A model generated the notes under the pieces. The model was not told where the DNA came from. It worked only from the letters and a program-made list of their open reading frames with translations, and did not search any database. Positions 362 to 28,724 of a stretch of 32,551 bases of DNA are shown piece after piece (position 1 is the stretch's first letter; every line of letters begins with the position of its first letter). The stretch is taken from NCBI GenBank assembly GCA_017428945.1, contig JAFRPW010000002.1, forward strand, positions 1 through 32,551. Reading direction: 5' to 3'. The translations under genes were made by a program, and so were the position numbers. This DNA comes from Bacteroidales bacterium. Lineage in GTDB: Bacteria; Bacteroidota; Bacteroidia; Bacteroidales; UBA932.

Positions 362-579
362 TCGCTCCAGTCGGGTTGTCAGCAAGCTGCCAACCCCACT
401 TCCGCTCCGTCGGCGCCTGAGACCTTCACGTCGGCAGAGCCGCCGCGAAAGTCTCACGGCTCCACAGACTCCGTCATTTGTGCCGTCCGGACTGCGTCCT
501 CCCGTCCCAAACGCCGGAGACTGTTCCACCGCCGCGCCTCACACCGCCCGTCAGTCGGACAAGCCCGCCTGACCGGCTA
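362..579 (-). repeat. 218-bp structured repeat, copy A
   Basis: This copy aligns without any gap to 3299-3516 at a constant offset of 2937. Positions 411-579 differ from copy B at about 14 of 169 sites by my count. Positions 362-410 are mostly diverged but keep a hairpin in the same place: arms 373-383 and 386-396 with one mismatch and an AA loop. Other stems are GAGAC/GTCTC (419-423 with 451-455) and a right-hand hairpin at 550-573, again with an AA loop. The right end supplies the TAG stop of the adjoining membrane-protein gene. I see no credible coding capacity. It could be a non-coding RNA, a non-autonomous mobile element or a bacterial interspersed repeat. The strand shown follows the neighbouring genes and is a guess. 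Confidence 0.75.
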
Positions 580-996
580 ATCTTTGAGATACTTATACCA
601 CTTGATAAGAAATCGGATTCCTGCGGATAACAAGCCAGGACCGAGTCCCAAATAGAACCATGCAAAGAACGGTTCCGGAATACCGGGAATGTACTTGAGC
701 GTGATGCCCAGGGTAATCATGAAGGCAATGATGAGATATCCCTTCAGGCTGAACGTCTTATAGATGGGCTCTTTCGGCCCGGGCAGGGAATGAATCCGTT
801 CCGAGTACTTTCTCACTATGCCTGTGAACATCATATAGAAGCCCGCAAACACCAGTACGGACAGCGGAATCATCCACCACAGTTTCTCGCAGGTGTTGTA
901 ATGTAATGGCTGATACCGGTTATCGAAATCTTCGTTCCGATAGCCGTCCACATCAGGCCATTGATGGCCAGAAGGTGTATCTTCCGAACTTTGCAC
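577..996 (-). CDS. Hypothetical membrane protein
   Basis: The product has 139 residues and I do not recognise a family. The N-terminal 38 residues are polar and acidic. Three hydrophobic segments then follow at about 43-62 (WMIPLSVLVFAGFYMMFTGI), 84-101 and 108-128, so the protein probably spans the inner membrane three times with a basic C-terminal tail (KWYKYLKD). It is the last gene of the block that starts with the TM nitroreductase and lies 4 bp after the GNAT stop codon, so it is probably co-transcribed with it. Its stop codon falls in the last bases of structured repeat copy A, so the repeat may have trimmed or replaced the original 3' end. The function is unknown. Confidence 0.65.
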   Translation of the reverse strand: MQSSEDTPSGHQWPDVDGYRNEDFDNRYQPLHYNTCEKLWWMIPLSVLVFAGFYMMFTGIVRKYSERIHSLPGPKEPIYKTFSLKGYLIIAFMITLGITLKYIPGIPEPFFAWFYLGLGPGLLSAGIRFLIKWYKYLKD

Positions 997-1000
997 ATAT

Positions 1001-1525
1001 CTATAGCGCGTAATCCAGTCGCATAATTTTCACCGGCCGCTCACCACCACGGTAAAGGTGGCTGCACCAATTGATGTCACCGGTGTCGCGGAAACCGCAC
1101 TTTTCCATAACCCGGCCGGATGCGGGGTTATCTACAAAATAGTCGCTCCAGAGGGTCTGGAAGCCCTTTTTGTTGAAGCACCAGTCTATCATAGCCCGGA
1201 GAGCTTCCGTGCACAGCCCCTCGTTCCAATAGGGTTTGGCTATCCAGTAACCAAGTTCCGCATCGTTCTCTCCTATGGGGATGTTGCTTTCGCCATATGC
1301 ATAGTATCCCATACATCCGATAGGCTCGCCGGTCTCTTTCAACACCAGCGCCCAAGTGTGTCCGTTGGAGAAGATGTCACGGATAATCTTCCGGCTTTCC
1401 TCCACCGACTGGTGCGCCGGCCATCCGGCACGCGGCCCTACGTCCGGGTCCGAGGCATATTTGAACAGCGCCTCGGCATCAGAATCAGCCCACGGGCGGA
1501 AAAGGAGTCTAAGGGTTTGAATCAT
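1001..1525 (-). CDS. GNAT family N-acetyltransferase (RimJ/RimL-like)
   Basis: This 174-residue protein has the plan of the Acetyltransf_3 (RimJ/RimL type) GNAT fold, which transfers acetyl from acetyl-CoA to an amine. RLLFRPW at the N-terminus is the usual beta-1 of the family. GEPIGCMGYY (about 67-76) is beta-4. AELGYWIAKPYWNEGLCTEA (about 89-108) leads into the acetyl-CoA pyrophosphate-binding region, and NPASGRVMEKCGF (about 132-144) is the conserved C-terminal motif. The substrate cannot be told. The start overlaps the upstream hydrolase stop by ATGA (1522-1525), which indicates translational coupling. A decayed paralogue of this gene lies at 21728-21906, so this family has been duplicated or moved within the chromosome. 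Confidence 0.88.
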   Translation of the reverse strand: MIQTLRLLFRPWADSDAEALFKYASDPDVGPRAGWPAHQSVEESRKIIRDIFSNGHTWALVLKETGEPIGCMGYYAYGESNIPIGENDAELGYWIAKPYWNEGLCTEALRAMIDWCFNKKGFQTLWSDYFVDNPASGRVMEKCGFRDTGDINWCSHLYRGGERPVKIMRLDYAL

Positions 1526-2256
1526 ATCATTCCACTTATCCGTTTCGCCACCTCATCAGGATGGTCCACCAGGAGTTGTCCGTGATTCATTCTCGGGAAG
1601 ACCTCGACTTGGATGCCGGGATTGATTCTCTTCAGATGCTCCACCTGCGGCTTGGCCACGAAGGCTTCCTTCGACCCGTGCCAGAAATGGATGTCGGCGC
1701 CGTGGATGGACTCCAGTTTGTTGGTATAGACGGACTTGTACCCGTCCAGGACGGCACGCCCGCCGCCGAATGGATAGACCTTCCGGCATTCATCCAGCAA
1801 CACATCGAAGTAGTGGGAATGGAACACCCAACGCCAGAATCCCGTCCAGTGGACACAGGTCCAGACGTTGAAGCACTGGTAATAGCGCAGCGGCCCCACC
1901 AGCCATCTCGGCAGGGGCAGCAGCGGCGCGGCATCCAGGATGGCGTAATCGATGGTCACTTCATCGCGCTCCAGCACACGGGATAGAATCTTTCCGCCCA
2001 GCGAAAGGCCGTAGGCACAGTCCAGATTGCCACCGAGCTGCTCTTGGACATAAGTGATTACCTGCGCCGCCTGGTCATCGATAGAAGTAAACTTCGTATG
2101 TTTCTCCAGCGTAAATCCGTCCATCTGAACGGCAATGATCCGGAACTTGTTCTTCAGCAAGTCAATCAGCGGCAGGAATATCTCATACGATACCCCCAGT
2201 CCCGGAATGAGCAGTAACGTCGGCGCGCCTTCTTTGCCAAATACCTTGAAGTCCAT
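1522..2256 (-). CDS. Alpha/beta hydrolase
   Basis: The product has 244 residues and belongs to the alpha/beta-hydrolase fold. TLLLIPGLG (about 13-21) gives the oxyanion-hole strand and turn. GLSLGG (83-88) is the nucleophile elbow with Ser85. MNHGQLL near the C-terminus (about residue 224) carries the likely catalytic His. The acidic residue is not obvious: WHGSKEAF sits where the Asp or Glu usually lies. There is no signal peptide, so the enzyme is cytoplasmic. It resembles carboxylesterases and lysophospholipase-like enzymes, but the substrate is unknown. It starts 7 bp after ybjQ and overlaps the GNAT gene by 4 bp, in a compact operon. Confidence 0.85.
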   Translation of the reverse strand: MDFKVFGKEGAPTLLLIPGLGVSYEIFLPLIDLLKNKFRIIAVQMDGFTLEKHTKFTSIDDQAAQVITYVQEQLGGNLDCAYGLSLGGKILSRVLERDEVTIDYAILDAAPLLPLPRWLVGPLRYYQCFNVWTCVHWTGFWRWVFHSHYFDVLLDECRKVYPFGGGRAVLDGYKSVYTNKLESIHGADIHFWHGSKEAFVAKPQVEHLKRINPGIQVEVFPRMNHGQLLVDHPDEVAKRISGMI

Positions 2257-2263
2257 TATTGCT

Positions 2264-2584
2264 TTAAGCCAGTTTTACGGCTGTCCCGGAGGCGGTGACC
2301 ATGAGCATTCCGCCATTCTCTCCCAGAACCTCATAATCAATGTCAATGCCGACCACTGCATCGGCTCCTTTCTGGCGGGCGCGTTCTTCCATTTCCTGCA
2401 TAGCCTGGGTGCGAGCGGTAATCAGTTCCTCTTCGTAAGAGCCACTGCGGCCGCCGATAATGTTGCGGATGCTGGCAGCAAAGTCACGGATGAAGTTCAC
2501 GCCGGAGATGACCTCTCCGAAAACGACGCCTTTATACTCGGCGATAGTCCGACCTTCGATGGTCGGGGTGGTAGTAAGTATCAT
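2264..2584 (-). CDS. YbjQ family (UPF0145) protein
   Basis: The 106-residue protein closely follows the YbjQ/UPF0145 pattern: [12 protein letters not shown] at the N-terminus, then [20 protein letters not shown], then [13 protein letters not shown] and [11 protein letters not shown] at the C-terminus. The family is a small conserved heavy-metal-binding-like domain (DUF74) that forms pentamers; no enzymatic role is established. I chose the ATG at 2584 because it overlaps the nitroreductase stop as ATGA and matches the family N-terminus. An ATG three codons upstream (2593) would lie inside the nitroreductase gene. It is probably translated from the same mRNA as its neighbours. Confidence 0.9.
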
Positions 2585-3261
2585 ATTTTCCATGTAAAGT
2601 TTTCTTTTCCGGCGCCAATCTCGAAGTGGTATTTCGCAATACCAAGGTCAATGCGGGTGTAGCCCCAAGGAGAGAAGAAGGTCTTGGTTTCCACTACATT
2701 GCTTGGATGCAGGATGAACTTGAATTTCTGCTGATTAACGGCCGTGGGGGCCAGTAGGGCCGCTTCCATACCTTTCCTGAACCACTCTGGCGGAAGACCA
2801 TCCGACTCGTAGAAACGTTCCATCGGCTTCTGGGGATGCTGCACGCCGGGAATTGTCCCGTAACCAAGGGCGATAAGGCAATGGACGATATCGCCCTCTC
2901 GGAGCGTGAAAGTCCCGGGAATCTTCTTGTAGGTGAGACCGGCCCAGCAGGTGTTCAGACCAAGCGACTGAGCCAGGATGACGAGTTCCTCTCCGTAATA
3001 GCCGACCTTTTCTTCCCATTCCTTGCCCTTGGGAGCCGCTACCACAAGATAATTCTTTACGCCGGAGAACTGTCCGTAGGTGGTGATGAACAGGCCGTTG
3101 AAAGCTTTGGGCTCATCCAGGACCAATTGGATGTTAAGTCCGTTGTCTTGGTTGATGCGCTCGATGGCAGCCCGGAGCGTAGCCGCCTTGGCCGTCTCAA
3201 TTGGTTTGTTCAGATATGTCCGCACGGAATGCCGTGCCTTGATTGCTTCTATGAGTTCCAT
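2581..3261 (-). CDS. Putative TM nitroreductase family protein
   Basis: This is a 226-residue flavin-dependent nitroreductase-fold protein of the 'TM nitroreductase' type. The N-terminus [20 protein letters not shown] is the usual FMN-binding Arg-His-Ser-Val-Arg start. [20 protein letters not shown] and [16 protein letters not shown] are the family core, and [10 protein letters not shown] resembles the second FMN-contacting segment. The enzyme probably reduces a small electrophile with NAD(P)H, but the substrate is unknown. I placed the start at 3261. A -7 box TATCTTTG lies at 3288-3281, so transcription should begin only about 13-15 nt before this ATG; an in-frame ATG at 3279 would fall at or before the transcription start. 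It is the first gene of the five-gene block. Confidence 0.87.
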
Positions 3262-3280
3262 TGTCAATTCATTCTCCATA

Positions 3281-3288
3281 CAAAGATA
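3281..3288 (-). promoter_or_regulatory. -7 box of the nitroreductase operon
   Basis: TATCTTTG on the minus strand matches the Bacteroidota -7 consensus TAnnTTTG. It lies 20 bp before the chosen nitroreductase ATG and just outside the end of structured repeat copy B. The -33 region would fall inside the repeat, and I see no good TTTG there. Confidence 0.65.
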
Positions 3289-3298
3289 ACCAAAATCC

Positions 3299-3516
3299 CC
3301 GCTCCGACCAAGCGCACGGCAAAGCCGCACGCTTCGTCTCCGCTTATCGGCGCTTGAGACCTTCACGTCGGCGGAGCCGCCGCTAAAGTCTCCCGGTTCC
3401 ACAGACTCCGTCATTTGGGCCGTCCGGACTGCGTCCTCCCGTCCCAAACGCCGGAGACAGTTCCGCCGCCGCGCCTCTTGCCGCCCGTCAGTCGGGTAAA
3501 CCCGCCTGACCGGCTA
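3299..3516 (-). repeat. 218-bp structured repeat, copy B
   Basis: This is the partner of 362-579 at a constant offset of 2937 with no indels. Its left hairpin (arms 3311-3320 and 3324-3333, loop AAA) has an almost unrelated sequence to the matching hairpin of copy A but the same position and shape. Its right hairpin (3487-3510, loop AA) is better paired than in copy A, and one pair shows a compensatory change (C560-G563 in A, T3497-A3500 in B). A GC-rich inverted repeat, CGGCGG then CCGCCG, lies inside the GAGAC/GTCTC stem (3356-3360 with 3388-3392). It fills the gap between the pgeF stop and the nitroreductase promoter, so it may overlap the upstream promoter region of that operon. Confidence 0.75.
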
Positions 3517-3534: not shown

Positions 3535-4230
3535 CTAAACCAGTTTGATGGAATTGATGATTCTTCCACACTGTACCCCCTCACGCCGGGCAGAGAAGTA
3601 GGCCTCAGTGGTATAGGTGTCTATCCCGCAGACCTGAATGTTTTCCGCATGGACTCCTGCCTGCTCCAGTAGCCAGCGGTTTGCATTGAAAAGGTCGATA
3701 TGATGGCCTCCCGACATGGGGGTTCCATCGCCTGGGCCATGGAAGGACCAGATGTTATCCATAGGAAAGTCGGTTTCCTTGAACTGCGTAGCCACCTCTT
3801 CGCCCACCTGGAAACTGTCCGGACCGATGCCTGGACCGATCACCGCTTTCATATCGGCGGGGTTGCACTTGAAGACTTGCGTCATCGCGGCGATAGCGCC
3901 TTGAACGATATGCAGCACGGTTCCTTTCCAGCCAGCATGGACTGCGGCTACGACGCGCTTTACCGTGTCATAGAGGAGAATGGGGACACAATCGGCCGTC
4001 CTCACGCCGATGGCTACTCCGGGGAGATTGGTGATGAAGGCATCGTATCCTTCCAGCTCCTCCCGCATCATGCCTGACCGTTTGATAATGGCCGCACGAC
4101 TGCCGTGGACCTGGTGGCCCTGCGTCACCTCATAGGGAAGGACGGCATCACGCTGCGTGGAAAACGCTTCCACGCCATCGCCCAGGTCATATTTCAGCAG
4201 CTCGTCGAACATGACTTCAAATTTAGTCAT
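3535..4230 (-). CDS. pgeF: Peptidoglycan editing factor PgeF (laccase-domain)
   Basis: The product belongs to the YfiH/PgeF Cu-oxidase_4 family, a cytoplasmic enzyme known to remove wrongly incorporated serine from UDP-MurNAc peptide precursors and able to oxidise polyphenols in vitro. The zinc or copper site is visible as HQVHG, RTADCVP (Cys ligand) and HAGWKGT (His ligand), followed by GPGIGPDSFQVG and CGIDTYT. From the ATG at 4230 it has 231 residues, shorter than many family members; the segment between AFSTQRD and the HQVHG motif lacks the usual glycine/asparagine-rich insertion. An upstream in-frame ATG (4284) would put a 10/11-bp DNA repeat array into the coding sequence, so I preferred 4230. 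It appears to be the chromosomal gene flanking the mobilizable element. Confidence 0.87.
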   Translation of the reverse strand: MTKFEVMFDELLKYDLGDGVEAFSTQRDAVLPYEVTQGHQVHGSRAAIIKRSGMMREELEGYDAFITNLPGVAIGVRTADCVPILLYDTVKRVVAAVHAGWKGTVLHIVQGAIAAMTQVFKCNPADMKAVIGPGIGPDSFQVGEEVATQFKETDFPMDNIWSFHGPGDGTPMSGGHHIDLFNANRWLLEQAGVHAENIQVCGIDTYTTEAYFSARREGVQCGRIINSIKLV

Positions 4231-4235
4231 TTTCC

Positions 4236-4305
4236 CCGACATGCCCTCGACATTTTTCGGCAGGGAATCGACATATTTCCGCATTTCATCGACATTCTAT
4301 CGACA
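4236..4305 (-). repeat. Seven-unit 10/11-bp direct-repeat array (operator or iteron-like)
   Basis: On the minus strand seven short units follow one another, consensus WTGTCGANNNN. The plus-strand TCGACA-like cores start at 4236, 4247, 4257, 4268, 4278, 4289 and 4300, spaced 11, 10, 11, 10, 11 and 11 bp. Four cores are exact TCGACA; the others are CCGACA, TCGGCA and TCCGCA. The spacing keeps every core on one face of the helix but is not a multiple of three, so this is a DNA-level signal and not a peptide repeat. It fills the gap between the ribbon-helix-helix gene stop and the pgeF start almost exactly. Confidence 0.7.
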
Positions 4306-4310
4306 AGAAT

Positions 4311-4622
4311 CTAACTTCGCTCGGCAAATTTCTTCGCTTTAGGGTACTTGGTGTCGATAAGATGCTCAATTGCCTCGGTGATGACATCGCCGAGGGAGGG
4401 GGCATCCTCCAGCCCTTCCGAGTCCAGCCAGATTCCCAGCAGGCGGATCTTGCGCTGAATCTCTTTGGGAATCCAGACGGCCGCCCGCTCCTGCGGGACA
4501 TCCTTTTTCTTTCTCACCTTCTTTGGCGCTGGGGACACCTCGGCCACCGGCTTGTCTCTCTCATCTTGATGCAACTTGGGGCGCTGTCGCAGCTGCTCCC
4601 GGAATTCGTCCAACTGTGTCAT
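4311..4622 (-). CDS. Ribbon-helix-helix-like DNA-binding protein (DUF3408-like)
   Basis: The product has 103 residues. The first half is charged and Lys/Pro-rich (SPAPKKVRKKKD at about 31-42). The second half, starting VWIPKEIQRKIRLLGIWL and ending ITEAIEHLID, has the strand-helix-helix pattern of ribbon-helix-helix proteins and resembles the C-terminal region of DUF3408 proteins carried by Bacteroides mobile elements. Such proteins act as partition, relaxosome or operon-autoregulatory factors. It is flanked by two repeat arrays, CTTGAT motifs on its promoter side (4637-4816) and TGTCGA motifs after its stop (4236-4305), which makes DNA binding at one of them likely. It marks the left end of the mobilizable element. 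The exact function is unproven. Confidence 0.7.
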   Translation of the reverse strand: MTQLDEFREQLRQRPKLHQDERDKPVAEVSPAPKKVRKKKDVPQERAAVWIPKEIQRKIRLLGIWLDSEGLEDAPSLGDVITEAIEHLIDTKYPKAKKFAERS

Positions 4623-4866: not shown

Positions 4867-4898
4867 TTTGTCAATTTGCCACAAAATGCCTATGTTTG
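4867..4898 (+). promoter_or_regulatory. Promoter of the mobilization operon
   Basis: The -7 box TATGTTTG at 4891-4898 fits TAnnTTTG. A TTTG lies at 4867-4870, 20 bp upstream, as the -33 element. Transcription should start near 4903-4906, leaving a leader of about 190 nt that contains the nested inverted repeats at 4924-5053 before the first mob gene. Confidence 0.6.
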
Positions 4899-4923
4899 CA
4901 GCGCGACTTATAAAGGAGCGGTG

Positions 4924-5053
4924 AATCTGGACGTTAGTCCAGATTGCGAGATGGGCGTTCGTGTCACGAACGCAGACCCCTGCGGGGCCATCTCGCGCGC
5001 CTACGGCGGGCGTTGCAGGCTCCGAAGTCGCCTGCTTTCGGGCCTGAGGCCCG
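4924..5053 (+). other. Structured leader / candidate oriT with nested inverted repeats
   Basis: Five hairpins lie in 130 bp. AATCTGGAC and GTCCAGATT (4924-4932, 4937-4945) are perfect 9-bp arms. GCGAGATGG (4946-4954) pairs with CCATCTCGC (4988-4996) and encloses two further hairpins: GCGTTCGTG with CACGAACGC (4955-4973, 1-bp centre) and CCCC-TGC-GGGG (4977-4987). Together they form a three-way junction. Downstream are GCAGGC/GCCTGC (5015-5035) and CGGGCC/GGCCCG (5039-5053). Mobilizable Bacteroides elements usually carry oriT just upstream of the mob genes, so this is the best oriT candidate. As it lies after the promoter, it may also act as RNA. Confidence 0.55.
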
Positions 5054-5094
5054 TCTGGGCAGTGGAGACAGTGTTTAATGTAGAGTTTGGTATT

Positions 5095-5547
5095 GTGAGA
5101 GAGATTAGAAAACACTATGTCAATGTGCGTTTCTCGGAGAAAGAGTTCGAGAAGCTGAATACCCAGATGCATCTTTCCGGGTATAACAACCGTTCAAGGT
5201 ACATCCGTGACGCGCTGCTTTCTACGCGCGTCCGCAAGCGCAGGAACCTTAGTCTGAATGAGGCAAACGTGGCGAAGCAGATCGAGCTGCTCCGCCTGGA
5301 TCTCAAGCGCATCGGCGTGAACTACAACCAGCGCGTAAAGACGCTCAACCGCCTTGCGCTCGTGCGCGACAGGCACGGGAACGTCATTATCAATGCGCGG
5401 GACATCGAGCACGACATGACCGAGATGAAGGAGATGATGACCGAAATGGTCAGGACCTTTTCGGTCATCCGGGAGGAGGTGACCGGCTGCGCCGGTGAAG
5501 AAGGAGATGAGAAAGAAAGTGAGGATGATGAGTCCTCCTATGTATAA
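5095..5547 (+). CDS. Mobilization accessory protein (MobA/MobC-like)
   Basis: The likely product is about 150 residues with an N-terminal ribbon-helix-helix segment (HYVNVRFSEKEFEKL, then NNRSRYIRDALL), a central helical part that includes LDLKRIGVNYNQRVKTLNRL, and a long helix with an acidic tail. The conserved 'RIGVNYNQ' region is typical of bacterial mobilization proteins that bind oriT and help the relaxase form the relaxosome. There is no in-frame ATG near the start of the homology; I chose the GTG at 5095. GTG codons at 5071 and 5062 are alternatives. The frame is open further upstream, but only through the hairpin-rich leader. It is followed 22 bp later by the SSB gene and then the relaxase. 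Confidence 0.78.
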   Translation: MREIRKHYVNVRFSEKEFEKLNTQMHLSGYNNRSRYIRDALLSTRVRKRRNLSLNEANVAKQIELLRLDLKRIGVNYNQRVKTLNRLALVRDRHGNVIINARDIEHDMTEMKEMMTEMVRTFSVIREEVTGCAGEEGDEKESEDDESSYV

Positions 5548-5569: not shown

Positions 5570-5875
5570 ATGCAAACCATTTTGATTTCGGGGAACCTCG
5601 CCAAGGATTGCGAGGTGATCCAAGGGAAGGAAGGGGCCGAGATGCTCCGTTTCGACGTGGCCGTGAAAGACGGCCGGGACAAGGAAGAAAAGCCGACGTA
5701 CTACACATGCCGGATGAAGAAGACCGGCATCGCCGAGTACCTGAAGAAGGGACGCTTCGTGTCCATCCTCGGGAACCTCAAGGTGAATGTGGTGGAGAAG
5801 GAAGGCAAGACCTATGTGAACCTGGACGTCTGGGTGGGCAGCCTGGACCTGGCACCGCTCCCCAAGGAGAGCTGA
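5570..5875 (+). CDS. ssb: Single-stranded DNA-binding protein, short form
   Basis: The 101-residue protein is an OB-fold SSB. MQTILISGNLAKDCEV is the usual beta-1, FDVAVKDGRD the next strand and loop, and KGRFVSILGNLKV the conserved core. It stops shortly after the OB fold (LDLAPLPKES) and lacks the long flexible C-terminal tail with the acidic tip of housekeeping SSB. Short SSBs of this kind are common on Bacteroidota mobile elements, where they probably protect the transferred single strand. It lies between the mob accessory gene and the relaxase in one operon. Confidence 0.88.
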   Translation: MQTILISGNLAKDCEVIQGKEGAEMLRFDVAVKDGRDKEEKPTYYTCRMKKTGIAEYLKKGRFVSILGNLKVNVVEKEGKTYVNLDVWVGSLDLAPLPKES

Positions 5876-5915: not shown

Positions 5916-7097
5916 ATGGTAGTGAAAATCAACGCACCCACACCGCACTGTTCCACCAGCCTCCAGTACAATGAGAGGAAAGTGGAAGAGGGCAAGGCTG
6001 CCGTGGTCTGTTCCCAGGGTCTCGATAACCCGGAGAAACCGCTTGAGACTTTCGAGCGGTATGAACGCGGCAGCCGCCGGTGCGAGAAGATGTCCTTTCA
6101 CATGTCCATCAATCCGTCGGTGACGGACGGGATGAGCCAGGAACAGATTGTCAGCTTTGCTCGGGAAATGATGGAGGGCCTCGGTTATGGCAACCAGCCC
6201 TTCATCATCTACCGGCACAACGACATCGGCCGCGAGCACTACCATATCGTATCCGTGCGCGTGGACAAGGACGGCCGGAAGATTCCCGACCATCAGGAGC
6301 ACCGACGCTGCCAGGAGCTGATGAAGGAGCTGGCCCCGAAGTACGGCTTCACCATCGGCAAGGGAGAAAAGAAGGAGAAGAAGGACAAAGGGCCGAAGGA
6401 TGAGCGGGTGGATTATCCGCGTTTCGACCCTGAGAAGGGCGACTATATGAAGCAGATAGAAGCGCTTGTGGAGCTGGCCATGAAGTACCATTTCACCACC
6501 GGCGAGCAGTATAAGATGCTGATGAAGCAGTTCGGCGTAGTTGTGGAAGAGCAGATGATACGGCGCAAGCCGATGCTGGTTTACTATGGCGTTGACCCCA
6601 AGACCGGGCGCAAATGTACGGCGCCCATCCCGGAAAAAGACCTGAACGTACCTGCGATGGAAGAAATCCGCAAGCACATTGAAGATTGCAAGAAAGAGAA
6701 ACGTGACAAGGAGAAGCAGCGCGTGGCCAACCTGGCCCGCATAGCCTTGAAAAATGGCACTTCCGAGCTGCATACGCGGCGGATTCTTCGGAAAAAGAAC
6801 ATCGGGATTGTCTTTTCCCGCACCAAGGAGGGGAAGATTTTCGGCGTTACTTTCATCGACCATCAGACCCGCTGCGTGTTCAAGTCCAGCGAGTTGAAGG
6901 GCATCACCGCCGGTCAGTTCGAGGAAGCCCGGATGACCAAGTGGCCTCCGGAGGACCGGGAGTGGAAAGTCTGGGAGGAGCCCCGGCAGAAAACGGCAGC
7001 AGAAGAGGCGGCCGAATCGCTGGTGGCTGCGATGGCGGCGGAACGGAGCCGCCGTCACGAGGATGAGGAGATCATGAGAAGGGGAAGACACAGATAA
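5916..7097 (+). CDS. mobB: MobP-type relaxase/mobilization nuclease
   Basis: This 393-residue protein has the relaxase/mobilization nuclease domain at its N-terminus. LQYNERKV (Tyr18) is the likely DNA-nicking tyrosine, FHMSINPS (61-68) is the second motif, and HNDIGREHYHIV (101-112) holds the His101/His108/His110 metal site. The enzyme should cut one strand at oriT and stay bound to the 5' end during transfer. The middle is basic and Lys-rich (about 145-165), consistent with DNA binding, and the C-terminal region has charged helices. It starts 40 bp after ssb and ends 3 bp before the coupling-protein gene, so the three are one transfer operon. The symbol follows Bacteroides mob naming and is approximate. 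Confidence 0.88.
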   Translation: MVVKINAPTPHCSTSLQYNERKVEEGKAAVVCSQGLDNPEKPLETFERYERGSRRCEKMSFHMSINPSVTDGMSQEQIVSFAREMMEGLGYGNQPFIIYRHNDIGREHYHIVSVRVDKDGRKIPDHQEHRRCQELMKELAPKYGFTIGKGEKKEKKDKGPKDERVDYPRFDPEKGDYMKQIEALVELAMKYHFTTGEQYKMLMKQFGVVVEEQMIRRKPMLVYYGVDPKTGRKCTAPIPEKDLNVPAMEEIRKHIEDCKKEKRDKEKQRVANLARIALKNGTSELHTRRILRKKNIGIVFSRTKEGKIFGVTFIDHQTRCVFKSSELKGITAGQFEEARMTKWPPEDREWKVWEEPRQKTAAEEAAESLVAAMAAERSRRHEDEEIMRRGRHR

Positions 7098-7100
7098 AGA

Positions 7101-9035
7101 TTGAGGCGTATGGATTCAAGAACTAAACCCATGTTTTCGGCGTTCCTATATTTCTCGGGAGCGCTGGTACTGATAATGATTTACTATGAGGCCTACCCGT
7201 TCTGGGCGGAGTTGCACCTGACAGCCGGACTGACGGACTCGCTGATGCTGGCCATCTACAAGGCAGGAGTGATGCAGAACTGGTGGGATGTGCGGCTGAT
7301 TGCGCTGTTCTTCTGCACCTGGTCCGTGATGGTCCGGAGCGGCAGTTCCAAGGAGGCGCAGTGGCAGGAGGTAGCCCTTCCCGTCGGCATCGGGGCGGCC
7401 CTATTCTTCGGCGGACGTGCGGCGGGAACCGGGCTGCTGTACGTGTTGATGACACTGGTGGGTTTCGCCTTGTATCTGATGGGCGCCATCGCCCTGGGCC
7501 GTGCCTGGAGGGCGATGAAGGCCGGTACGATGGACCGGGGAAACGATACTTTCCCGCAGTGCGAAAGGCTGATTGAAAACCGCTACAGCATCAATATCCC
7601 CACGCGGTATCAGGATAAAGGCAAGATGCACAAGGGCTACATCAATGTGGTGAACCCTTTCCGCGGGACGATGGTCATCGGCACGCCCGGCTCCGGCAAG
7701 ACTCACTCGGTCTATGGCCCTTACATCCGGCAGATGATCCAGAAGGGCTATTCGCTCTTTGTGTATGACTACAAGTTCCCGGACCTCACTCAGCGCGTGA
7801 TGAACGAGCTGCTGGACAACATCGACTGCTACAAGGGCGTGAAGCCGGAGATGTATGTGGTGAACTTTGATGACCCGCTGTACTCGCACCGCTTCAACCC
7901 CATCCATCCGCGCTACCTGCAGGACCCCATCGACGCCACGGAGATTGCCGAGGTAATCATGAAAAACGCCAGCAAGGAGACGAACAAGGGGGATGATTTC
8001 TTCTCACTGTCTGCCCGTTGCTACGTGGATATGCTCATCTGGTTCCTTCGAATCTACGAGGGCGGCAAGTATTGCACATTTCCGCACCTCATCGAGCTGA
8101 TGGGGCAGAACTACAAGCACGTGCTGCTGATTATGCAGCGCTATCCGGAACTGGACGTGAAGCGCAACACTTTTCAGGACGCCATAACGGACCGGGCCTT
8201 CGAGCAGCTGCAGGGCCAGATTGCATCGGCCCGTGTGCCACTCAACCGCTTTGTCTCCGAAACCCTGTACTGGACGCTCTCCGGGGACGATTTCTCCCTG
8301 CAAATCAACGACCCGCAGCATCCGAAGATTGTCTGCGTGGGGAACAATCCCACCCGTCAGCAGGTCTACGGGACCACGCTGGCCATGCTGATGAGCCAGC
8401 TCTTCAAGATTATCAACCGGCCCGGGATGATGCGCTGCGGCGTGCTGATTGACGAACTGCCCACCATCTACCTGAAAGGCCTGGACCACCTCATCAACAC
8501 GGCCCGGCAGAATAAGGTCGCTGTGGTACTAGGCGCCCAGGACAAATCCCAGCTGGTGAAAGATTACGACAAGAAGGAATCGGACGTCATCTTCAACACG
8601 GTGGGGAACGTCTTTGCCGGTGCTGTCAAGGGCGAGACGGCCGAGGGACTGTCCAAGTCGTTCGGCAAGTTCGAGCAGGAAACACGCTCCTATCAGGAGA
8701 GCGACACCTCCGAACACGTCACCATATCCTTCCAGCAGCGGGATGTGCTCCCGGCCAGCCGTATAGAGGCGCTGTCGCAAGGCTCCTTCTGCGGCTACGT
8801 GGCCGATGAGTATCGGCAGAAGATCCACCCGAAGGTGTTCTGCGGGGAGATTATCTCGGACGGAAAGACGACCCACAAGGAGGAAGTCCCGCAGGTCGTC
8901 GATACAACAAAAGAAACAATCATGAAGGAGGTCCGGCTCAACTATAAGCGCATCCGCAACGAGGTTTATAACCTCGTGCAAAAGGAACTCAACCGGCCGG
9001 ATCCGGAGCCGGGGGCTACTGCTGCCTCTTCTTAA
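7101..9035 (+). CDS. mobC: Type IV coupling protein (MobC/TraG-VirD4 type)
   Basis: This 644-residue protein has several N-terminal membrane segments (about 11-27, 60-80, 92-105 and 110-133), then a VirD4/TraG-type ATPase. Walker A is GTPGSGKT (194-201) and Walker B is VLIDELP (Asp451-Glu452). Coupling proteins bring the relaxase-bound strand to a type IV secretion channel. No channel genes are present, so the element must use a helper conjugative element. The start at 7101 is 3 bp after the relaxase stop. The last 20 bp overlap the 3' end of the convergent HTH gene. The C-terminal residues (RPDPEPGATAASS) look like a flexible tail. Confidence 0.88.
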   Translation: MRRMDSRTKPMFSAFLYFSGALVLIMIYYEAYPFWAELHLTAGLTDSLMLAIYKAGVMQNWWDVRLIALFFCTWSVMVRSGSSKEAQWQEVALPVGIGAALFFGGRAAGTGLLYVLMTLVGFALYLMGAIALGRAWRAMKAGTMDRGNDTFPQCERLIENRYSINIPTRYQDKGKMHKGYINVVNPFRGTMVIGTPGSGKTHSVYGPYIRQMIQKGYSLFVYDYKFPDLTQRVMNELLDNIDCYKGVKPEMYVVNFDDPLYSHRFNPIHPRYLQDPIDATEIAEVIMKNASKETNKGDDFFSLSARCYVDMLIWFLRIYEGGKYCTFPHLIELMGQNYKHVLLIMQRYPELDVKRNTFQDAITDRAFEQLQGQIASARVPLNRFVSETLYWTLSGDDFSLQINDPQHPKIVCVGNNPTRQQVYGTTLAMLMSQLFKIINRPGMMRCGVLIDELPTIYLKGLDHLINTARQNKVAVVLGAQDKSQLVKDYDKKESDVIFNTVGNVFAGAVKGETAEGLSKSFGKFEQETRSYQESDTSEHVTISFQQRDVLPASRIEALSQGSFCGYVADEYRQKIHPKVFCGEIISDGKTTHKEEVPQVVDTTKETIMKEVRLNYKRIRNEVYNLVQKELNRPDPEPGATAASS

Positions 9036-9321: not shown

Positions 9322-9389
9322 TTTTCCTTTTCAAATTTGGGCGTTTACGGCGCTTTGTTTTCCTTTGCAATGTCAGTCAACAACCGCCG

Positions 9390-9410
9390 TTGTCAAATTT
9401 GACTTGACAA
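9390..9410. promoter_or_regulatory. Candidate operator between HTH regulator and primase
   Basis: The perfect 12-bp palindrome GTCAAATTTGAC lies at 9392-9403. The wider arms TTGTCAA (9390-9396) and TTGACAA (9404-9410) share its sequence. The position between divergent genes, one encoding a Cro/CI-type protein, suggests autoregulation of the replication and excision genes. I find no good TAnnTTTG box for either side. Confidence 0.5.
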
Positions 9411-9460
9411 AAGTAAGGAAAAGAATCGGAAAAACCGAGAAAAAGATAAACTTTTTTCGT

Positions 9461-10360
9461 ATGTTCGACAACGAACTGTACAACATCCCGCTGGGGAAGG
9501 TGCTGGAAGCTCTGGGTGCAAGGCCGGGGAAGGCCAGGAATATGTGGACCTCTCCGCTTCGGAGCGAGAAGAATGCATCCCTGCATGTGGATCCGGTCAA
9601 GAACATCTGGTATGACTTCGGCCTGTCGCAGGGCGGAACCAACGTGGACCTGGTGATGCGCGTAAAGAAATGCTCGCAGGCCGAAGCATACAGTTTCCTG
9701 GCCAGGCTGGTTCCCACGCCGCTCCGTTCGGCCGCAAAGGAAGCGGTGGAACAGCGTCCCTCCATACAGATAAAGGCCGTCCGGGCCATCCGGAGCAACT
9801 ATCTCCTGCAGTACCTGGAAGGGAGGAAGATTCCGCTGAGCTTGGCCCAGCGCTATCTGAAAGAGATTATCGTCTATGACCCGCAGCGGGACCTTCATTT
9901 CACCCTGTTGGGAATTCCCAACAATGCCGGTGGCTATGCGATGAAATCGCCCAGCGGTCACAAGGGAACCGACAAAGCGGGAATCACCACTATAAATAAA
10001 GAAGGAAAGATTACCTCCAAACCGTCCACCCGAAAGGTGGCCGTCTTTGAAGGGATGTTCGATTTCCTTTCCTGGCGCGTGATGCAGGGAAGCGAACTGC
10101 CCAGCTGCGACGTAGTCATCCTGAACTCCGTCAACAACCTCGGCAAGGCCGCCGAATACATCAAGCAGCACGACGGTGCCACCTGTTTCCTGGACAACGA
10201 TGCCGCCGGGGAGCGCTGCTATCAGGGCGTCCGTGATTTCCTGAAAAGGAAGGACGTGGTGGACATGTCCGACCTATACGGCCAATTCAAGGATATCAGC
10301 GAAATGCTCCAGGCCTCCCGGGGTTATTCCTCTCATATGAACCTCTCTCCATCTCTGTAA
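9461..10360 (+). CDS. Mobile-element DNA primase (CHC2-like plus Toprim)
   Basis: The product, 299 residues from the ATG at 9461, resembles DNA primases carried by Bacteroides mobile elements. The N-terminal part (about 10-65) has the shape of a CHC2 zinc finger (TSPLRSEKNASLHVDP, then WYDFG), but the cysteine ligands of DnaG-type fingers are absent. The C-terminal half is a Toprim domain, with VFEGMFDF (Glu197) and LDNDAAG (Asp245, Asp247) for metal binding. It probably makes primers for replication of the transferred strand. An ATG at 9365 would add 32 residues through the palindrome region and is less likely. It is followed 12 bp later by the excisionase-like gene. Confidence 0.83.
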   Translation: MFDNELYNIPLGKVLEALGARPGKARNMWTSPLRSEKNASLHVDPVKNIWYDFGLSQGGTNVDLVMRVKKCSQAEAYSFLARLVPTPLRSAAKEAVEQRPSIQIKAVRAIRSNYLLQYLEGRKIPLSLAQRYLKEIIVYDPQRDLHFTLLGIPNNAGGYAMKSPSGHKGTDKAGITTINKEGKITSKPSTRKVAVFEGMFDFLSWRVMQGSELPSCDVVILNSVNNLGKAAEYIKQHDGATCFLDNDAAGERCYQGVRDFLKRKDVVDMSDLYGQFKDISEMLQASRGYSSHMNLSPSL

Positions 10361-10372
10361 AGGACCTCACCT

Positions 10373-10669
10373 ATGGACAACCTTGCACTAATGTTTTTGG
10401 AGTCAATCCGACCCGAACTGAATAAGATCGTGGAAGAAGCGGTCATGTCCGCTATGGGCAAGATGCAGCAGCAGGTCCCACGGTATCCGGAGAAGGTGAA
10501 CGTAGAGCAGGCCGCAGAAATTACCGGCTACTCCAAGAACAGCCTGTACCAGATGCATTCGCGCGGGCAGCTACCCTGCGCCATCAAAGTAGGCGCAAAA
10601 CTCATGTTCCGCACCAAGGAACTCCAGGAGTGGGTTGAAAACGGAGGGCCGGACTCGATTCAACAGTAG
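10373..10669 (+). CDS. Excisionase-like helix-turn-helix protein
   Basis: The 98-residue protein has an N-terminal helical part (ESIRPELNKIVEEAVMSAMG) and a C-terminal MerR-type HTH_17 domain: VNVEQAAEITGYSKNSLYQM, then SRGQLPCAIKVGAKLMFRTK and an ELQEWVE helix. This is the usual form of excisionase or DNA-bending proteins in Bacteroides integrative elements. It is the last gene before the tRNA-Pro attachment candidate, a typical place for recombination functions. An integrase partner is not seen. It probably shares a transcript with the primase. Confidence 0.8.
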   Translation: MDNLALMFLESIRPELNKIVEEAVMSAMGKMQQQVPRYPEKVNVEQAAEITGYSKNSLYQMHSRGQLPCAIKVGAKLMFRTKELQEWVENGGPDSIQQ

Positions 10670-10760
10670 ATAAACGGCCTTTATATAGAGTTGTCAAAGC
10701 CCTAACGGGACCTCCAAAGAAAGAAAAAGGAAGAAAATCTTGCTTTATAAAGGGCTAAAA

Positions 10761-10781
10761 TCACACCCTTTTCACACCCTT
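10761..10781. repeat. Direct repeat of TCACACCCTT near element right end
   Basis: TCACACCCTT occurs at 10761-10770 and again at 10772-10781. The pair lies between the excisionase-like gene and the palindrome next to the tRNA, where integrase arm-type or excisionase binding sites would be expected. The role is inferred from position only. Confidence 0.4.
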
Positions 10782-10786
10782 AAAAG

Positions 10787-10824
10787 AAATCAAGCACTTT
10801 CGGAATTCCGTAAGTGCTTGATTT
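10787..10824. terminator. Long palindrome / bidirectional terminator
   Basis: The arms AAATCAAGCACTT (10787-10799) and AAGTGCTTGATTT (10812-10824) are perfectly complementary. They enclose CGGAATTCCG (10801-10810), itself a palindrome, with a single T-T mismatch on each side. On the minus strand the hairpin follows the tRNA-Pro 3' end by a few bases and is followed by a T-rich run, so it should terminate the tRNA transcript. On the plus strand it ends with TTTTT and could stop transcription leaving the element. Confidence 0.7.
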
Positions 10825-10828
10825 TTAA

Positions 10829-10904
10829 TGGTCTGGATGACTGGACTTGAACCAGCGACCTCCTGGTCCCTAACCAGGTGCGCTACCAACTGCGCTACAT
10901 CCAG
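10829..10904 (-). tRNA. tRNA-Pro, anticodon AGG, CCA apparently encoded
   Basis: The minus strand folds into a cloverleaf: acceptor CTGGATG/CATCCAG, D stem GCGC/GCGC, anticodon stem CCTGG/CCAGG with loop TTAGGGA, a 5-nt variable loop, and T arm GCTGG/CCAGT with loop TTCAAGT. The anticodon reads AGG. C1-G72, A73, G35 and G36 agree with bacterial proline identity. The bases after the discriminator A are CCA (10831-10829), so the 3' end looks encoded. An A at position 34 is unusual for a bacterial tRNA-Pro. It has its own promoter and lies next to a mobilizable element, which probably used it as attachment site. Confidence 0.85.
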
Positions 10905-21727: not shown

Positions 21728-21906
21728 TCACAACACATAATCCAACCTCATCACCTTCACTGGCCGCTCACCACACCTATACAGCTGACTCAGCCAGTTC
21801 ACCTCGCCGGTGTCTCGGAAGCCGCATCTCTCCATCACGCGGCCGGAGGCGGGGTTGTCCACTTGTTGAAGCACCAATCTATCATGGCCCGAAGCGCCTC
21901 GGTTCA
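21728..21906 (-). pseudogene. Decayed GNAT acetyltransferase fragment
   Basis: The minus strand encodes the C-terminal part of a paralogue of the GNAT gene at 1001-1525. From the stop at 21728 it reads back through GERPVKVMRLDYVL and VDNPASGRVMERCGF, nearly the same as the intact gene. Upstream, EALRAMIDWCFN is present, but about 34 bp between this segment and VDNPASG are missing, which shifts the frame. A further small deletion lies near 21900, and the N-terminal 100 or so residues are absent. It is a dead copy. Confidence 0.85.
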
Positions 21907-22057
21907 GATAGACCTGTATGCATCCGGCTTACACAAAACAGGGAGTACTGCTGTCAGGCGATACACGGCGATGGAACTGAAAGATCGTTTTGCGCTTATG
22001 AACGCGGCTTTTGACCAGAGCCCCTACAAGGTAAACAAGAAACTTGAGGTTATTTGA
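21907..22057 (+). pseudogene. Unidentified 3' gene fragment
   Basis: This plus-strand stretch stays open and ends at a TGA at 22055-22057. It reads VQIDLYASGLHKTGSTAV, then YTAMELKDRFALMNAAF and KVNKKLEVI, which looks like real protein-coding sequence. I do not recognise the family. Its upstream end joins the antisense of the GNAT pseudogene, so it has no start codon of its own and is probably the C-terminal end of a gene destroyed by rearrangement. Its last bases overlap the response-regulator stop. Confidence 0.5.
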
Positions 22058-28630: not shown

Positions 28631-28638
28631 CAAATTTA
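28631..28638 (-). promoter_or_regulatory. -7 box of DUF4143 ATPase copy 2
   Basis: TAAATTTG on the minus strand fits TAnnTTTG. Its first two bases are the last two of a 32-bp repeat unit, so the repeat occupies the -33 to -7 interval and any protein bound there would block or tune transcription of the ATPase. Confidence 0.6.
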
Positions 28639-28724
28639 CACTTTTTTGGGGGAATAATCTAATGACGCTACACTTTTTTGGGGGAAAGATTTGAAGAATC
28701 TACATTTTGCAGATATCACCAGCC
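28637..28724. repeat. 32-bp-period repeat array upstream of ATPase copy 2
   Basis: TACACTTTTTTGGGGGAA occurs at 28637-28654 and again at 28669-28686, and a weaker unit beginning TACATTTTGCAG starts at 28701. The units are exactly 32 bp apart. Each has an 18-bp conserved core and a 14-bp variable part. The kernel (T-run, G, then GG) recalls the 23-bp array upstream of ATPase copy 1. Confidence 0.65.

Follow-up and report, generated by a model that had tools for sequence, protein, structure and literature searches.

What is the repeated element, rich in hairpins, that lies near the start of a contig from a Bacteroidales bacterium? The window analysed here is the whole 32,551-nt stretch of contig JAFRPW010000002.1 (assembly GCA_017428945.1). 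A preliminary description had pointed to two copies of a structured repeat in it and suggested a structured RNA, a non-autonomous mobile element or a new interspersed repeat family. We use 'element' for this folded repeat of the minus strand, with the coordinates of its copies set by covariance model R1; L-numbers denote the DNA stretches or loci that were compared, and G-numbers denote genomes. We found that the two copies belong to a strongly supported family of folded elements of roughly 200 bases that has no Rfam match, and that members of this family lie in arrays of one polarity beside a mobilization module. Our preferred reading, to which we give a probability of about 0.45, is that the element marks cassette boundaries, as a folded single-strand site, within an integrated mobilizable element.

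Two copies of one element

Copy 1 (361–579, with its 5′ end at 579 and its 3′ end at 361) and copy 2 (3298–3516, with its 5′ end at 3516 and its 3′ end at 3298) lie on the minus strand and scored 222 and 207 bits with R1, respectively; both were among its 28 training sequences. A repeat search of the window aligned 410–579 with 3347–3516 over 170 nt without gaps, at 92% identity and an offset of 2937, which reproduces the same-strand copies, constant offset and core identity of about 92% reported earlier. The gapless alignment had also been extended over 362–409. There it holds in that indels are almost absent, but identity is low: the copies agree at 26 of 53 columns on the side of hairpin P5, whose fold is retained, compared with 151 of 165 alignment columns over the P1–P4 core when both are read on the same strand. 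This difference accounts for the strong core and weak flank of the preliminary description. As had been said, no plausible protein is encoded: the open reading frames (ORFs) that cross the element are mechanical, and the last ORF between the copies (577–996, minus strand), which matches no Pfam family, just overlaps the 5′ edge of copy 1 with its stop codon.

The notion of dispersed copies did not hold in the genome of origin (2.6 Mb, 47 contigs), in which a search at E values up to 0.001 found none beyond these two, 2.9 kb apart. No Rfam family reached its gathering score in a scan of the whole window, and region 300–640 searched at E values up to 10 gave three matches only, all far under their gathering scores.

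A conserved fold on the minus strand

The element folds into a 5′ hairpin (P1), a three-way junction that is closed by P2 and contains P3 and P4, and a 3′-end hairpin (P5). Alignment and covariation place P1 at 546–577 in copy 1 and at 3483–3514 in copy 2. The junction spans 413–537 in copy 1, with 534–537 paired to 413–416 as P2, and 3350–3474 in copy 2; inside it, P3 occupies 464–524 and P4 occupies 418–456 of copy 1. P5 lies at 364–405 and at 3301–3343, its fold kept and its sequence divergent between the copies. Among the stems proposed earlier, GAGAC/GTCTC corresponds to helix P4 and a terminal hairpin to P1.

To 28 copies aligned with MAFFT without structural information we fitted 51 consensus pairs, 27 of which changed on both sides in at least one sequence. 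All but one of these 27 pairs (26) lie in P1, P4 and P5. No both-side changes occur in P2, which hardly varies and is therefore hardly tested by covariation, and the apical part of P3 differs in length and sequence among copies. Four of five covariation measures exceeded all 500 shuffled alignments: paired cells reached 96.3% (85.4% in shuffles), cells changed on both sides numbered 150 (44.2) and the covariation score was 0.340 (0.137), none of the 500 shuffles being as high in any of these; for further pair types, 9 of 500 shuffles were as high. Because the sequences are related, the shuffles overstate significance. Safer evidence comes from slid versions of the consensus structure, in which only 30–41% of cells paired, and from the variety of pair types, as at one P4 position that pairs as U–A in 10 copies, G–C in 9 and C–G in 5.

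Several results identify the minus strand of the window as the one that folds. On this strand 58 G–T cells occur against 7 A–C cells, compared with 113 and 67 in shuffles. The sense (window minus) strand was the more stable one in 28 of 28 copies with RNA and DNA parameters alike, and mean folding z with DNA parameters was −7.0 for sense and −3.6 for antisense; with RNA parameters it was −6.6. Whether the folded molecule is RNA or transferred single-stranded DNA cannot be told apart from the sequence alone. DNA is favoured because polarity is fixed relative to the mobilization module whatever strand the neighbouring genes use.

Arrays of one polarity beside a mobilization module

In the 16 loci that have module genes beside elements, all 30 elements lie on the strand opposite the relaxase and NikA genes, a count that is not made of fully independent cases because L051 and L067, as well as L041 and L042, are close relatives. 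The other element-bearing loci are short contigs or are free of module genes within the stretch covered. Most cargo genes are encoded on the folded strand; at least 13 of the 39 elements that were mapped lie next to an ORF of the other strand, by our reading of mechanical ORFs.

Genes beside elements include those for nitroreductase, YfiH-type, YbjQ, hydrolase, GNAT, AlaX-like, DUF5131, DUF4234, NUDIX, AbiEi/AbiEii, Fic, flavodoxin, radical SAM, CrcB and RadC proteins, and models of defence proteins, known or candidate, match some of them. Many elements are preceded at a short distance by a stop codon and followed at a short distance by TAnnTTTG, a Bacteroidales promoter motif. Downstream of 15 of 43 elements this motif lies no more than 70 nt away; upstream it is present over the same distance, facing away, in 12 of 44. 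Among random 70-nt stretches, 2.7% contain it. Inside the elements TAnnTTTG, the sole promoter motif examined, was found in 0 of 44 on the sense strand and in 1 of 44 on the antisense strand. In the window, the motif at 3281–3288 (minus strand) stands 9 nt past the 3′ end of copy 2, ahead of the nitroreductase gene. At L048:504–659 a nitroreductase cassette gene matched in two short pieces only and may therefore be a pseudogene.

Beyond the last element of several arrays lies a basic protein of 70–77 aa (beginning MKPKKKQKKLRITEADF; for example, L040:7507–7725). It has no Pfam, NCBIfam or PADLOC family, and it was matched in 7 of 11 element loci and in 0 of 11 element-free loci, one of the latter being without its array side.

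Element edges are recurrent breakpoints

Comparisons between related arrays showed that gene units come and go at the elements. L040 and L041 align at 95.6% up to the last base of an element (9042/8323), and past this shared first element L041 carries one additional gene-plus-element unit. The 7,058 bp that the window shares with L047 at 92.3% identity take in the YfiH gene and a complete element, and divergence starts 17 nt past the latter. The window and L039 match at 98.3% over 6,020 bp to the last codons of the leader gene, after which different genes follow, and L041 and L080 diverge from the leader stop codon onward and realign from about 6 nt before an element. L058 contains a 92-nt element remnant whose flanks resemble L053 on one side and L046 on the other. 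In many loci an element is followed by the nitroreductase gene, and the upstream neighbours there are of at least six kinds. The element edges and the end of the leader are thus recurrent breakpoints, on the 3′ side of the element in some comparisons and on the 5′ side in others. A proposal that one diagnostic base fixes the crossover was withdrawn, as that base varies among orthologous elements.

Truncated forms were also seen. At L042:7597–7775 a truncated element abuts an internal stretch of a gene related to the 72-aa MKPKK gene, and some 3 kb further along there is a portion of an AlaX-like cassette. L098, L099, L100, L101 and L102 are short element remnants, at least some of which seem to have the tips of P3 and P5 (CCGGCTTGCCGG) fused; this fusion looks like a deletion between internal repeats.

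Distribution of the family

To learn how widely the element occurs, we searched 400 congeneric genomes, drawn from a larger group, with DNA and then applied the covariance model to the stretches around the best matches. At least 23 of the 400, the genome of origin included, carry a copy of 45 bits or more; this is a lower bound, as the wide searches scored no more than two candidates from each genome and the model was run on retrieved stretches only. DNA matches at E values up to 0.1 came from 123 of the 400 genomes, many just 20–40 nt long, and the genome count takes in the model-confirmed genomes only. The main model scan returned 70 rows, of which 41 were element-like at 34 bits or more, or 39 without L055, which we left out because its element rows score the same as those of L054, from the same genome. 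The other rows were weaker (26 bits or less), and many were single hairpins read on the opposite strand. A second model scan added 5 elements, giving the 44 used in the polarity and motif counts.

Copies were clustered in several other genomes as well. A pattern scan of public genome contigs gave 19 stretches, 16 of them titled Bacteroidales or Bacteroidia, and several of these contigs stem from rumen, omasum or reticulum; the three remaining matches (L063, L068 and L072) had no model match and were taken as chance. When 149 genomes sampled from the family were searched with the model, one weak match fell outside the genus (G514, 34.5 bits), and 13 genomes of that match's genus, G514 included, gave no DNA match to the element. 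Blastn of plasmids and phages gave no element match, and viral contigs did not match one exact element pattern. Among 20 stretches with related modules, the model found one weak element (L111, 29 bits), which a later scan recovered as well, and a match in L112 at E 0.68.

The preliminary description had proposed a covariance model and a search of related genomes; both yielded support, with the covariation and the recurrent copies given above and no known family matched. Of the three identities it offered, the data support a new repeat family and a single-strand fold that has been conserved. A freely dispersed non-autonomous mobile element is not supported: copies are clustered in arrays, 16 loci adjoin one type of mobilization module, and polarity is uniform.

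Gene map of the window

The array side of the window begins with the leader gene (4311–4622, minus strand), which encodes 103 aa without a Pfam or NCBIfam family and is the first gene on that side of a candidate origin of transfer (oriT). The first cassette gene, of the YfiH/laccase type (PF02578), follows at 3535–4284, and copy 2 separates it from genes for a TM1586-type nitroreductase (2581–3261), a YbjQ family protein (2264–2593), an alpha/beta hydrolase (1522–2256) and a GNAT acetyltransferase (1001–1525), all on the minus strand. A relative of the GNAT cassette gene occurs as a fragment at 21731–21936, 20 kb away, with 82% and 64% protein identity in two pieces; there is no long gene call there and the model found no element.

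The mobilization module is encoded on the plus strand. It comprises a NikA/MobC-like accessory gene (4876–5547; the start is that of the mechanical ORF, and the true start is probably further in), a gene for a single-strand binding protein (SSB; 5570–5875, PF00436), a relaxase gene (5916–7097, PF03432; best NCBIfam match MobB NF041325 at 240 bits, under its cut-off of 400), a type IV coupling protein gene (7101–9035) and a CHC2/Toprim primase-like gene (9365–10360). The stretch 10373–10904 holds an AlpA-like helix-turn-helix gene and then tRNA-Pro, with no long ORF between them; this tRNA possibly marks where the mobile element ends. Tyrosine recombinases of different kinds lie on the tRNA-Pro side of the module in L050 and L086. 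Elsewhere in the window, a 32-bp unit starting TACACTTTTTTGGGGGAA forms two imperfect tandem copies at 28637–28700.

The candidate oriT (4924–4973) consists of two inverted repeats around CATCTCG/C on the minus strand. Similar inverted repeats around CATCTYG/C lie between NikA and the leader in 15 aligned loci, and we take this sequence to resemble MOBP nic sites. Given the layout of a hairpin followed by CATCTYG/C, the transferred strand would be sent toward the array. Samuel et al. 2024 (PMC11541004) place the relaxase typically in the lagging region. By analogy, we infer that the array is the leading region and that the folded strand is the strand transferred.

A proposed cassette-boundary site and its alternatives

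The observed fold, arrays and polarity fit a mechanism whose direction of transfer and mode of recombination we put forward conditionally. With the array as leading region, the element would fold while its strand is single-stranded during conjugation, and some recombinase would use the folded element as the place where cassettes enter, leave and change order. The element would thus act like an attC site while being unrelated to it. More tentatively, these arrays may represent a second, independently evolved integron-like system, in which strand-specific, three-way-junction sites of single-stranded DNA in the leading region of mobilizable elements are recombined in conjugation without an integron integrase. 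Title- and abstract-level literature searches, with subscription journals mostly outside their coverage, found no description of such arrays.

Several points weigh against a cassette-boundary site. The proposed direction of transfer rests on a motif and on analogy. No recombinase could be linked with the elements: the tyrosine recombinases close to two of the arrays differ in type, among 11 carrier genomes one lies near the array only in G023 and G246, and the array contig of G163 (108 kb) gave none at E values up to 1e-5. L053 carries an element of 178 bits with no mobilization gene in about 39 kb upstream (L053, L095). As to the strand, one pair supplies 20 of the 58 G–T cells, and the antisense strand also falls below a z of −2 in 24 of 28 copies with DNA parameters or 26 of 28 with RNA parameters. 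Some breakpoints are at the 5′ edge: that between L041 and L080 has weak homology of 77% there, and L039 and L047, which diverge where the leader ends, realign from 3 nt before an element. In the best event, L040 compared with L041/L042, the crossover can be placed no more closely than roughly the last 60–96 nt, which means that homologous recombination within the element could also account for it. The cores of the two window copies, moreover, look homogenised relative to P5.

These last observations are what a passive repeat would predict, that is, arrays that grow and shrink by homologous recombination between copies, with a fold that serves some unrelated purpose or was formerly useful. The copies form direct repeats some 200 bp long, those in the window have cores of homogenised appearance, the L040/L041 crossover could fall anywhere in about 96 shared nt, and some short remnants resemble deletions between internal repeats. 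A sequence without function, however, would hardly keep both-side changes in 27 pairs, one polarity and breakpoints at its edges, and we regard this explanation as improbable. A structured RNA, either a stable intergenic transcript or an untranslated-region element on cassette mRNAs that travels with the cassettes, is unlikely too, though less so. In its favour, the folded strand codes for most cargo genes, RNA folding is strong (mean z −6.6, as above), and many elements sit just behind a stop codon and just in front of the promoter motif. Against it, polarity stays fixed relative to the module even where the neighbouring genes are on the other strand; the lack of TAnnTTTG inside the elements on the sense strand, for the one motif examined, leaves no promoter seen for a discrete transcript, and no Rfam family matches.

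The uniform polarity of all 30 elements, the multi-hairpin shape and the SSB and primase genes within the same module would also suit a single-strand initiation or priming site, or a Frpo-like promoter on the transferred strand, perhaps working with the element-encoded SSB and primase. An earlier comparison with a strict threshold, in stretches cut on one side, had found the SSB region in 11 of 11 loci with elements and in 1 of 11 without. At a looser threshold, ten related element-free modules (array side covered, no element at E values up to 0.1, L127 dropped because it begins inside the module) contained SSB in 7 and primase in 6 of 10 cases, and we therefore dropped the two proteins as specific partners of the element. 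A repeat search of the 11 element-free stretches, L127 included, showed nothing comparable; it picked out just a pair of 72-nt repeats in L117 and, in L123, a short family rich in AT. An initiation site would furthermore leave the position at cassette borders unexplained, TAnnTTTG is virtually missing from the elements on either strand, and most cargo genes face a way that is not transcribable from the inferred transferred strand. We consider such a site a poor candidate.

Comparison with known systems

Integrons are the textbook case of cassette capture by folded single-stranded DNA. Like integron attC sites, the elements are folded single-strand sites between gene cassettes, with a variable terminal structure and a fixed polarity, and the cargo of the arrays (acetyltransferase, NUDIX, toxin–antitoxin and small unknown genes) is similar in style to that of integrons. 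Gene units are arrayed between sites and are gained and lost, which speaks for likeness and not for membership. The inverted 7-nt R boxes of attC follow the patterns RYYYAAC and GTTRRRY. A pair of such boxes near the two ends was found in 0 of the 36 elements that reach 180 nt, with the outermost 25 nt searched on both strands, and the 5′ end paired with the 3′ end, the other attC hallmark, in 0 of 36 minimum-energy folds; on these two counts we rejected identity with attC. The element consensus instead has local hairpins at both ends and a three-way junction between these side hairpins, and the promoter motif downstream of 15 of the 43 elements is a further difference. Full copies measure 192–253 nt, compared with the 57–142 nt given for attC in PMC2727003, which also describes attC as deliverable in single-stranded form by conjugation. 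No IntI exceeded the TIGR02249 cut-off of 265 bits in 24 genomes (the 23 carriers and G149, which has a short element remnant), a search of incomplete genomes in which 14 controls also gave none and no positive control was included. In position, array form and turnover, the element works like an attC site.

Other known structures share single features. Strand-specific hairpins of mobile DNA also form the ends of IS200/IS605 or REP-type elements, whereas copies of our element lie in arrays; no transposase was found in the cargo genes scanned, and the carriers were not searched for the IS200/IS605 family. Frpo/ssi promoters, as portrayed in PMC11541004, are likewise structured, occur in several copies in the leading region and fold on the transferred strand, a placement that for our element would follow from the proposed direction of transfer; they differ in that the element has no TAnnTTTG inside on the sense strand and its cargo is mostly not transcribable from that strand. 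STAXI, according to PMC2864571, is a structured motif of intergenic regions that lies close to genes for SSB, antirestriction and integrase proteins and that its authors discussed as possible single-stranded DNA. It is a repeated pseudoknot, and in the Rfam scan, the one comparison made with it, no family reached its gathering score against the window's element.

Whatever its mechanism, the element defines a strongly supported structured family without an Rfam match, and its covariance model provides a means of finding such cargo arrays in uncultured gut bacteria. If the element is a cassette-boundary site, the presence in Bacteroidales of a site of unrelated structure doing similar work would point to more than one origin of cassette capture and, because the arrays adjoin a mobilization module with one polarity, would here tie that capture to conjugation.

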